Source: Deltaproteobacteria bacterium GWB2_55_19
GTDB lineage: Bacteria; Desulfobacterota; GWC2-55-46
DNA length: 64,000 nucleotides
Assembly: GCA_001797465.1 (NCBI GenBank)
Contig: MGPQ01000016.1
Coordinates: 1-64,000, forward strand
Direction: 5' to 3'
Under the pieces are notes generated by a model. It did not search any database. It was given only the letters and a program-made list of their open reading frames with translations, and was not told the DNA's origin. Positions 22,130 through 24,826 of this stretch are shown one piece after another; position 1 is the stretch's first letter, and each line of letters begins with the position of its first letter. The position numbers and the translations under genes were made by a program.

Positions 22130-22141
22130 GTTACGCCATAA

Positions 22142-22315
22142 ACGCCAGGTATCTCCATCGGGAGATAAAAGGGAATCCCGTGGCCTGCAGAAGCAGGGAA
22201 TCGGGAGCGGTCCCGCCGCTGTAACCGGGGACGAAAACCAACGAAGCCACTGGGGGATAACCCCGGGAAGGTTGGAGAGTAGGCCGATCCGGGAGCCAGA
22301 AGACCTGCCCGGCGT
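22142..22315 (+). promoter_or_regulatory. cobalamin (B12) riboswitch
   Basis: Closing stem ACGCC/GGCGT with AGGT/ACCT (22142-22150 and 22303-22315). Internal conserved blocks are AGGGAATCCCGTG, GAGCGGTCCCGCCGCTGTAA and CCACTGGGG. The B12 box AGCCAGAAGACCTGCC is at 22294-22309. All are hallmarks of the cobalamin aptamer on the plus strand. An intrinsic terminator follows at 22395, so it probably acts by transcription attenuation: high B12 turns the downstream ThiC-family gene off. Confidence 0.93.
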
Positions 22316-22394
22316 CATGAAAGGCCTTCTCGCGGACAGGAAGGTCGTCTGAAGGAAATACCTTCGGAACGATTGAGGGTGAAGAACAGGGTGC

Positions 22395-22595: not shown

Positions 22596-23897
22596 ATGAC
22601 CCAGATAGAGGCCGCAAGAAAAGGCATCATAACAAATGAGATGGAGGAGGCCGCGAAAGGCGAAGAAGCATCCCCGGAATACATAAGACAGATGATCGCC
22701 GAGGGAAAGGCGGTCATACCGAATAATAAGAACCGGAAGGCGCGGCTCGTGGCCATAGGCAAGGGGCTCCGCACCAAGGTCAACGCAAGCATAGGGACCT
22801 CCTCTGACATAGTGGACGCCGCCTCAGAGGTCGAAAAGGCGCTCGCCGCAGAAAAAGCCGGGGCAGATACGCTGATGGAGCTTTCGGTCGGCGGCGACCT
22901 CGACTCAATAAGAAAAGAGGTCCTGTCCGCGACCTCCTTGTCCGTCGGGAGCGTCCCTTTATATCAGGCATTCAAAGAGGCGATAGAAAAATATCACGAC
23001 CCGAACAAATTGACCGAAGAGCTGCTCTTCGATGTCCTGGAGCGGCAGTGCGCCGACGGCATCTCATTCATGGCGGTGCACTGCGGGCTCAACAGGCTCA
23101 CAATTGAGAGGCTGAACAGGCAGGGTTACAGGTACGGCGGGCTGGTCTCCCGCGGGGGCTCGTACATGGTCGGCTGGATGCTCAGGAACAACAGGGAGAA
23201 CCCGCTCTACGAGCGGTTCGACAAGGTGGTGGAGATTTTAAAGAAGTACGACTGCGTTTTGAGCCTCGGGAATGGCCTGCGCGCAGGGGCGGTCCACGAC
23301 TCACTCGACAGGGCGCAGGTCCAGGAACTGCTCATAAACTGCGAGCTCGCCAACCTCGGCCAGGAGATGGGTTGCCAGATGATGTGCGAAGGGCCGGGGC
23401 ATCTGCCGCTCGACGACATAGAGGCGAACGTAAAACTCCAGAAGAGGATGAGCGCAGACGCGCCGTTCTATGTGCTCGGCCCGCTTACGACAGACATCGC
23501 GGCAGGCTACGACCATATATCGGCGGCGATAGGCGCGGCAGAGGCGGCCCGCTACGGCGCCGACCTCATCTGCTACGTTACTCCGGCAGAGCACCTTGCG
23601 CTTCCCAACAAGGAGGATGTTGTTGAAGGGGTGCGGGCCGCGCGCGTCGCCGCGCACGTAGGCGACATGGTAAAGCTCGGAAGGAAAGGGCGCGACATGT
23701 CGATGGCAAAGGCGCGGAGGGACCTCAATTGGAATGAGCAGGCCAGGCTCGGCCTCTTTGGCGAGAGGGCGTCCGAGATAAGGGCGTCAAGGGCGCCTGA
23801 GGACTCGGACACTTGCACCATGTGCGGGAGCTTCTGCGCCCTCGACAATGTAAATGTCCACTTCAGTGAGAGCCTTAAGGCCGGAGATAAGGCTTGA
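22596..23897 (+). CDS. bzaF: ThiC-family radical SAM enzyme, probably BzaF (5-hydroxybenzimidazole synthase)
   Basis: 433-residue short-form ThiC-family protein with a C-terminal radical SAM cluster C407-X2-C410-X3-C414 (CTMCGSFC). ThiC makes the thiamine pyrimidine from aminoimidazole ribotide; the paralogue BzaF turns the same substrate into 5-hydroxybenzimidazole, an anaerobic precursor of the B12 lower ligand. A B12 riboswitch rather than a TPP riboswitch controls this gene, which favours BzaF. Residue changes against typical ThiC agree: SLGNGLRAG where SLGDGLRPG is usual, and MELSVGGD for MDLSTGGD. ThiC remains possible. An AAAGGAGA ribosome binding site precedes the ATG. Confidence 0.85.
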   Translation: MTQIEAARKGIITNEMEEAAKGEEASPEYIRQMIAEGKAVIPNNKNRKARLVAIGKGLRTKVNASIGTSSDIVDAASEVEKALAAEKAGADTLMELSVGGDLDSIRKEVLSATSLSVGSVPLYQAFKEAIEKYHDPNKLTEELLFDVLERQCADGISFMAVHCGLNRLTIERLNRQGYRYGGLVSRGGSYMVGWMLRNNRENPLYERFDKVVEILKKYDCVLSLGNGLRAGAVHDSLDRAQVQELLINCELANLGQEMGCQMMCEGPGHLPLDDIEANVKLQKRMSADAPFYVLGPLTTDIAAGYDHISAAIGAAEAARYGADLICYVTPAEHLALPNKEDVVEGVRAARVAAHVGDMVKLGRKGRDMSMAKARRDLNWNEQARLGLFGERASEIRASRAPEDSDTCTMCGSFCALDNVNVHFSESLKAGDKA

Positions 23898-23998
23898 AGG
23901 GCCTCTGAAGAACTATTCCTGTCTGAAACGTATCAAAATATAAGGCGTTTTATCCAGACAGTCTGCGTGTAACCTGACTCACTGCTTAAGACATCCTT

Positions 23999-24012
23999 CA
24001 TGGTGTACCATG
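23999..24012. promoter_or_regulatory. palindrome upstream of the first mini-protein gene
   Basis: CATGGT-GT-ACCATG, two perfect 6-bp arms with a 2-bp centre, 30 bp before the start codon at 24043. It could be an operator. No clear promoter is seen around it. Confidence 0.35.
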
Positions 24013-24042
24013 CCCCGGTATCTTCAATAAAAGGAGGGCAAA

Positions 24043-24150
24043 ATGAAAAACAAACGCACCATATCGGATCTCTTCGAGATCATCGCCGGTTTTACGGTAA
24101 TGGCTGTCCTGTTTTTTTCGGTCTTTACCACGTTTACAAAGGGCTATTAG
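24043..24150 (+). CDS. mini membrane protein 1 (35 aa)
   Basis: 35-codon frame with a strong AAAAGGAGGG ribosome binding site 5-6 bp from the ATG. The product has a short basic N-terminus (MKNKR), the motif DLFEII, then a hydrophobic stretch GFTVMAVLFFSVF that fits one membrane helix, and a short KGY tail. It is closed by its own strong terminator 8 bp later. Three more frames of the same type follow from 24455. No known family is recognised. Size, ribosome binding site and terminator support a real small membrane protein, perhaps a subunit or regulator of a membrane complex. Confidence 0.7.
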   Translation: MKNKRTISDLFEIIAGFTVMAVLFFSVFTTFTKGY

Positions 24151-24157
24151 GAAAAAG

Positions 24158-24185
24158 GCCGGGGCCTCGCGCCCCGGCTGTTTTT
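24158..24185 (+). terminator. terminator of mini-protein gene 1
   Basis: Perfect 8-bp stem GCCGGGGC/GCCCCGGC with loop CTCGC, followed by TG and five T residues. It begins 8 bp after the stop codon of the 35-codon gene. Confidence 0.88.
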
Positions 24186-24407
24186 ATCTGAGGAAAATAG
24201 CCAAACACCCCCTCTCCTTTTTTCTTTTCACTCTCTATTGCTTTCCGCACTTTCCTATGGCCGTTGCTCGTATCCGCGTTGCGGTAATGCCCTCGCTGTC
24301 ACCGTGCAATGTACGGCCTTAAGCCGGCAAAAAAAGACGCGGGAATTCACCTGCCTTTTTTTGTTTTCCGGTGCTCCATTTTAATAATTCTTTAATTCAG
24401 GCCATAC
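24186..24407. other. spacer between the two mini-protein units
   Basis: No gene seen. A CAAAAAAAG/CTTTTTTTG stem with CCGG outer arms at about 24326-24370 may be a weak bidirectional terminator. Confidence 0.4.
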
Positions 24408-24413
24408 TATAAT
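24408..24413 (+). promoter_or_regulatory. -10 box of the mini-protein operon
   Basis: Consensus TATAAT, 42 bp before the start codon of mini-protein 2. A matching -35 hexamer is not obvious (AT-rich TTTTAATAATTC lies upstream), so an activator or another sigma factor may be involved. Confidence 0.5.
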
Positions 24414-24454
24414 GGGTGCGTAAAGAACGGGACCCGGCATAAAAGGAGGCATCC

Positions 24455-24553
24455 ATGATAAGGACGATGAACAGGTCAAGCGGACTCTTCGAGATAATGG
24501 CAACTTTCGCCATCCTCGCGCTGGTGCTCCTCATATCGATGATCATAATCTGA
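24455..24553 (+). CDS. mini membrane protein 2 (32 aa)
   Basis: 32-codon frame with an AAAAGGAGG ribosome binding site 5-6 bp from the ATG. Basic N-terminus (MIRTMNRSSG), then LFEIM, aligning with DLFEII of mini-protein 1, and an uninterrupted hydrophobic helix to the C-terminus (ATFAILALVLLISMIII). It is the first gene of a three-gene unit with a TATAAT box upstream and a terminator at 24795. No family recognised. Confidence 0.7.
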   Translation: MIRTMNRSSGLFEIMATFAILALVLLISMIII

Positions 24554-24571
24554 AACTGAAAGGAGAGGGAT

Positions 24572-24667
24572 ATGGATAAGAATACAGGCAAGGGCTATTT
24601 GTTCGAGCTACTGACAGTCGCGGGCAACTTCGTGGCTGGCGTCCTTCTCTATGTCATGGTCTCTTAA
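24572..24667 (+). CDS. mini membrane protein 3 (31 aa)
   Basis: 31-codon frame, ribosome binding site AAAGGAGAGG, 18 bp after mini-protein 2. N-terminus MDKNTGKGY, then LFELL at the same place as LFEII/LFEIM in the two previous proteins, followed by a hydrophobic segment VAGNFVAGVLLYVMVS. Predicted single membrane helix. No family recognised. Confidence 0.68.
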   Translation: MDKNTGKGYLFELLTVAGNFVAGVLLYVMVS

Positions 24668-24677
24668 GGAGGTCTTT

Positions 24678-24770
24678 ATGGAAAGGATAATACCCCTGGG
24701 GCAGTTCTTCGCCGCGCTGGCAATCCTTGTCCTCGCGCTGGCCATTATCTCAAAGGTCACATTCGTTTAG
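24678..24770 (+). CDS. mini membrane protein 4 (30 aa)
   Basis: 30-codon frame 10 bp after mini-protein 3, with a TAAGGAGGT ribosome binding site that overlaps the previous stop. MERIIPLGQ then FFAAL, which may be a diverged form of the LFE motif, and a hydrophobic helix AILVLALAIISKV. It is the last gene of the unit; a strong terminator follows 24 bp later. No family recognised. Confidence 0.68.
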   Translation: MERIIPLGQFFAALAILVLALAIISKVTFV

Positions 24771-24794
24771 GCACCCCCGCGGCGATTGAAAATA

Positions 24795-24826
24795 AAGCCT
24801 GGCCGGATATTCCCGGCCAGGCTTTT
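24795..24826 (+). terminator. terminator of the mini-protein operon
   Basis: Perfect 12-bp stem AAGCCTGGCCGG/CCGGCCAGGCTT with a 6-nt loop, continuing into TTTT. It separates the mini-protein genes from the helicase. Confidence 0.9.

Follow-up and report, generated by a model that had tools for sequence, protein, structure and literature searches.

The window analyzed here is a 64,000-nucleotide stretch (positions 1 to 64,000) of contig MGPQ01000016.1 from Deltaproteobacteria bacterium GWB2_55_19, whose assembly (G000) comprises 2.6 Mb on 21 contigs. Between thiC and a DEAD-box helicase gene lie four very short open reading frames on the + strand, encoding tiny membrane proteins A (24043..24150, 35 aa, MKNKRTISDLFEIIAGFTVMAVLFFSVFTTFTKGY), B (24455..24553, 32 aa, MIRTMNRSSGLFEIMATFAILALVLLISMIII), C (24572..24667, 31 aa, MDKNTGKGYLFELLTVAGNFVAGVLLYVMVS) and D (24678..24770, 30 aa, MERIIPLGQFFAALAILVLALAIISKVTFV). 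All four start with ATG, with an AGGAG-type Shine-Dalgarno (SD) sequence 5-9 nt upstream, and each product has a single hydrophobic helix, just as described in an earlier note made from this sequence. The motifs LFEII, LFEIM, LFELL and FFAAL were also found at the positions given there. Protein D is diverged, and the acid of the motif is replaced by Q.

Gene A is followed by its own intrinsic terminator with a 9-bp stem (24157..24179, +). Genes B, C and D are separated by gaps of only 10-18 bp, have good SD sequences, and form one predicted transcription unit that ends in a bidirectional terminator with a stem of 13-14 bp (24794..24825, +). Upstream of this unit is the TATAAT box noted earlier, a -10 element at 24408..24413 (+), and 11 bp 5' of that element is a direct repeat, TTTAAT-AATTC-TTTAAT (24380..24396, +), that has 0 mismatches to the regulator box pattern discussed below. 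Seven terminator-like sites were found in the array region, compared to 1.3 +/- 1.2 in shuffled sequences, and the terminators reported after A and D are thus real. The evidence from promoter, terminators and spacing is consistent with the two transcription units that had been proposed.

Short open reading frames are common, and about 9% of random 500-bp stretches hold one that passes the same filter, so that the four frames might be chance occurrences carrying SD-like sequence. However, the order, codon-position bias, motif and promoter are all kept across genera, which makes that explanation extremely improbable; on the sequence evidence, A to D are real genes. DNA and protein searches revealed orthologues in the same order in four genomes of the same genus (G001, G002, G003 and G004), with gene D apparently absent from G003, as well as on a single contig assigned to the G039 bin. 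Gene A orthologues are 71-94% identical, with a dN/dS of about 0.1 in most pairs. For the pooled array, computed with two pairs missing, dN/dS was 0.19-0.34, indicating purifying selection. Substitutions favor third positions and are mostly synonymous. The conserved frames, order and synonymous bias that the earlier note had suggested looking for in relatives were therefore all found in the same-genus genomes, and its view that the array is beyond chance holds against the random background. The relatives also carry one to three extra paralogues between genes A and B, namely E and F in G002, G003, G004 and G039, with A2 in addition in G002, and all of these have an SD sequence of their own; further paralogues are found at other genome sites. 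The G039 contig (G039:C33, L042) is 3.5 kb long; its content is almost the same as in the genus of the window, while it is binned with the genome of another family, and its placement is probably a binning error.

Profile searches starting from the A-D proteins retrieved single-helix proteins of 27-40 aa, grouped in arrays with as many as seven members, at no fewer than four loci per genome. In all, there are about 50 members across many genomes, with about ten or more per genome, and their consensus at the membrane edge is [IL]FE[IV]xA, with a conserved acid and a face of small residues. Profile matches occurred at several loci in the genome of the window and in genera g1, g3, g12, g11 and g2, with weaker matches in g7, g5 and g6. 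Locus I, that of the window, has the arrangement dinB/(thiC)-array-DEAD-box helicase, with seven tiny genes in G006, three in G015 and four in G040. The other three were also found in the window's own genome: locus II has three to four genes by ubiE and a ubiB-CGGC pair (G000:C10), locus III is a single gene between DUF3570 and apbE (G000:C12), and locus IV has four genes ahead of a PAS/sigma-54-type regulator (G000:C12). The tandem tiny genes at the ubiE locus (L103, L154-L156) show few residue differences, and in G000 the first and second copies have a box apiece, one of which lies 10 rather than 11 bp before the -10 element.

Strong matches were limited to the GTDB family of the window among the 62 class genomes and 395 phylum genomes searched. 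Outside the family, the 395 phylum genomes gave matches of a mixed alignment (A4) at E values of about 0.01-0.05; these fell mostly within long frames and were not retained. Also excluded were matches in G005 (C61) and G017 (C69), which belong to a 130-142-residue protein. Searches of Pfam, NCBIfam, PHROGs and PADLOC gave sub-threshold matches only, none of them acceptable. With regard to a phage origin, viral contigs were scanned with the family A profile, A4 being too diverse for this purpose, and no relative was found. We found no description of the family in searches of open-licence papers. The earlier suggestion of an undescribed family of tiny membrane proteins is thus upheld and extended to about 50 members, and a lineage-specific family of predicted one-helix membrane proteins is well supported.

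In 32 non-redundant members the acid position is occupied by E in 27, D in three and Q in two, a frequency that is not independent of the alignment, whose register was partly set by the acid. Counting from the acid, small residues are found at +3 (72%), +6 (66%), +10 (44%) and +13 (69%) of these members, and their periodicity peaks at 105 degrees (permutation p = 0.005). The net charge ahead of the acid is positive, which suggests an N-in topology, and the N-terminus is probably cytoplasmic. AlphaFold2, given the single sequence of protein B, predicted one helix from residue 3 to 31 with a pLDDT of 87. The small-residue face most likely serves for packing, either against helices in other membrane proteins or between the tiny proteins themselves. 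Processing of the type IV pilin kind was rejected, as a search for a prepilin peptidase site (G/A then F/M, with E at +5) revealed no cleavage site, and the residues preceding the acid vary, with no consistent G-x4-E.

When upstream regions were aligned, gene B and locus II were both seen to carry TTTAATAATCCTTTAAT, with TATAAT 11 bp downstream of it. The resulting promoter, YTTAAT-N5-YTTAAT-N11-TATAAT, is common to many arrays and is found in other genera too. The window copy, at 24380-24413 ahead of B-C-D, is kept in G001, G002, G004 and G039 and partly in G003. The box pattern matched 26 sites in 5 genomes versus 2 for the reversed pattern, and a second form matched 70 sites in 14 genomes versus 1 for its reversed pattern. 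Among 54 sites read in detail, 45 have a T before the first half-site, a position outside both search patterns. A tiny-protein ORF lies within 500 bp of the box in 21 of the 54, compared to 9% of random positions (Fisher p 5e-9), although this excess is partly circular because the pattern was derived from tiny-gene promoters. No recognised box was found upstream of gene A in the window's genus or upstream of E and F; the G015 (genus g12) relative has one. The region upstream of A (window 23940-24042) contains a conserved block, GTAACC-A-CTCAC-GC ... GTGTACCATGC, which is unlike the shared box, and A, the most conserved member, therefore appears to use another promoter in this genus.

Boxes were also found ahead of genes for envelope redox proteins, named by Pfam/NCBIfam or by reading. 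These are operons of cytochrome b561 with a response regulator and histidine kinase; a tiny ORF followed by a cytochrome b561/DHC fusion, DUF1924 (SHP) and a diheme cytochrome c; a TlpA-DUF4266-DUF3570-q-ApbE cluster, in which q is a tiny member; and CcdA. The part of a published account drawn on here describes SHP-DHC-cytochrome b561 operons with an adjacent sensor kinase and response regulator, and shares with the boxed operons the same cytochromes (PF01292, PF09626, PF09086/DUF1924) and the two-component pair by cytochrome b561, while making no mention, in that part, of tiny membrane proteins or a common box (PMC2909971). Flavinylation operons of TlpA/thioredoxin, DUF4266, DUF3570 and ApbE, linked to electron supply of the DsbD/CcdA type, have the same gene set as the operon found here (PMC8238504), but in our case apbE is preceded by an inserted tiny member, and the shared box lies ahead of the operon.

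The box is located 5' of the response regulator in 21 of 21 loci, compared to 2 of 4200 shuffled sequences; in 10 of these loci the regulator start was not located and the whole locus was scanned, the boxes nevertheless lying upstream of the regulator match. With a Response_reg domain (PF00072, 103 bits) and a Trans_reg_C domain (PF00486, 85 bits) the protein belongs to the OmpR/PhoB class. It is nearest to the CopR/CzcR group and to the PmrA/BasR and DrrD structures, yet passed no curated subfamily cut-off among its best matches, the closest family being CzcR/SilR/CopR (TIGR01387; 258.7 bits against a cut-off of 279.2). Orthologues (76% or more) are present in 21 of the 30 genomes of the family, and all 13 of the box-scanned genomes that contain one have boxes. 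The five box-scanned genomes without it comprise the near-complete G009, G011 and G024, which have neither boxes nor convincing tiny members, and G000 and the 74%-complete G022, which have some boxes (Fisher p 0.012). Within genus g6, G044 is the one genome with the regulator and also the one genome with a clear tiny member, which follows a box. The assembly of the window itself, G000, keeps 6-7 boxes and has no orthologue of the regulator, only a 57% paralogue. The close relative G001 does have the orthologue (L233:2629-3297), and in G000 the operon is either absent from the assembly or lost by the genome; this gap is the chief point against the proposed regulator. The 57% paralogue (L238) is present in almost all genomes, including those lacking boxes, and was set aside as the regulator on this account. 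A regulon sharing the box is well supported by these comparisons, and they argue strongly that this response regulator acts through it.

Individual tiny membrane peptides controlled by stress regulators have been described before. MgrB, MgtS, AcrZ, KdpF and CydX have one helix in 30-50 aa, are often controlled by a regulator or by stress, and bind a larger membrane protein; PmrR is likewise about 30 residues long. The proteins described here are similar in size and in their one helix, but they differ in having no family match, no known partner adjoining them in the window, and an arrangement in paralogue arrays. Pfam and NCBIfam models, including those for CydX, CcoQ and KdpF, gave no match above cut-off, and the adjacency to a large partner seen with such proteins is lacking in the window. 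The earlier note had made the latter point, and it stands for the window but not for relatives, where tiny members are found inside or directly before redox operons, examples being q, which precedes apbE, and the tiny ORF ahead of cytochrome b561/DHC. The PmrA box consists of two hexamers arranged head to tail and five bases apart (PMC3973317), and the window promoter has the same layout, about the same half-sites and the N5 spacing, as in a PmrA/OmpR-type direct repeat. PmrR is a membrane peptide under PmrA/BasR that inhibits LpxT (PMC8129183), and resembles our proteins as a tiny membrane peptide behind an OmpR-class direct-repeat promoter, a likeness of putative function. PmrR is encoded by one gene next to pmrAB, whereas the family found here occupies multiple loci, with about ten members or more in each genome, and no link to LpxT was seen for the tiny proteins.

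The above considerations suggest a model in which a candidate OmpR/CopR/PmrA-class response regulator and its histidine kinase, encoded behind a cytochrome b561 gene, would control B-C-D. The regulator would bind the box, with TTTAATAATTCTTTAAT as the candidate target sequence, and through this element it apparently regulates not only its own operon but also the cytochrome b/SHP/diheme-c and TlpA-DUF3570-ApbE operons and CcdA. The kinase would sense an envelope or redox signal, upon which the redox operons and the tiny proteins would be induced together. The tiny helices would then pack on partner helices and alter their activity or stability, as do MgrB, PmrR and AcrZ in enterobacteria. We give this reading, of a lineage-specific one-helix family with B-C-D induced by a two-component system and acting by helix packing, about an even chance of being correct. 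Of the roles floated in the earlier note, that of stress regulators gains support from the two-component-type box and from the redox and envelope genes of the regulon.

The proteins might instead act without any partner, as growth-silencing peptides like YohP or TisB that enter the membrane upon stress, lower the proton motive force and slow metabolism, with redundant copies serving as dose. Their size, hydrophobicity and control by a stress-type regulator would fit, as would the tandem near-identical copies at the ubiE locus, a trait shared by some type I toxins (Ibs, Ldr), and the 27-aa YohP does reduce membrane potential (PMC12719787). Nonetheless, we consider such a role unlikely. Specific contacts are suggested by the conserved acid, by the face of small residues and by sequences that are particular to each orthologue and kept by purifying selection. 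Type I toxins are also encoded on monocistronic, translation-occluded mRNAs, unlike the tightly polycistronic B-C-D genes with their good SD sequences. An Rfam scan of the array revealed no type I antitoxin RNA, no family reaching threshold, although an antisense RNA of a new kind may be present.

Were specific partners involved, they could be the redox complexes of the regulon (cytochrome b561/DHC, DUF3570-ApbE, CcdA), for which the tiny proteins would be accessory subunits or assembly factors in the manner of CydX and CcoQ. The member within TlpA-DUF4266-DUF3570-q-ApbE, the tiny ORFs directly 5' of cytochrome b561/DHC in G006 and G019, and the box common to both gene sets are all in keeping with this possibility. 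Yet most members are in stand-alone arrays distant from redox genes, each array holds several divergent paralogues, none matches the CydX or CcoQ families, and the ORFs preceding cytochrome b561 have no clear FE motif, leaving this role quite doubtful. The partners could also be chiefly the tiny proteins themselves. Distinct paralogues are co-transcribed side by side in a fixed order, and they possess polar E/N residues and the small-residue face, features that drive helix association. A hetero-oligomeric membrane assembly of this type, the other role floated in the earlier note, is hard, however, to reconcile with arrays that vary by genus from three to seven members and with the existence of single-gene loci, and we regard it as very unlikely. 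Equally speculative is the idea that one two-component system deploys at least ten different 30-residue helices as a membrane structure made entirely of tiny subunits, which would protect or rewire envelope electron transfer.

What is new here is that one family of this kind has grown into multi-locus arrays linked to a common box and to redox operons of the envelope. Its members are dispersed over the genomes of a single group of groundwater bacteria, and one sensor-regulator pair appears to induce them along with envelope redox proteins. The expansion makes it testable whether tiny helices serve as an interchangeable toolkit, and with the common box further members can be sought from their promoters instead of from weak similarity in sequence. 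The combination of the same motif, many paralogues and the same promoter is a pattern that can be searched for in phyla with unannotated 30-residue genes.

Two further box-driven genes were observed. One encodes a conserved protein of 131-134 residues with glycine-rich hydrophobic segments (L241:1819-2211, L197, L202 and L225; DAIYGGVVGALVGAAVLLLTDNP), which had no match in Pfam or NCBIfam. The other is a hydrophobic ORF of 27 residues, MKKLAGIAPIDVLAATIVAVTITMSIL, located upstream of groES/groEL (L237:2524-2604, G000:C19); it is conserved in G004, and G001 and G002 have boxes at sites that appear to correspond. In the window, the thiC-like gene neighboring the array (22596-23897, +) is preceded by a cobalamin riboswitch at 22130-22326 (+; Rfam RF00174, E 6e-29). 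Its product is ThiC in NCBIfam (588 bits) and falls under the BzaB cut-off (548 versus 700), and the B12 riboswitch suggests that the gene is a BzaF-like ThiC paralogue for synthesis of the B12 lower ligand.
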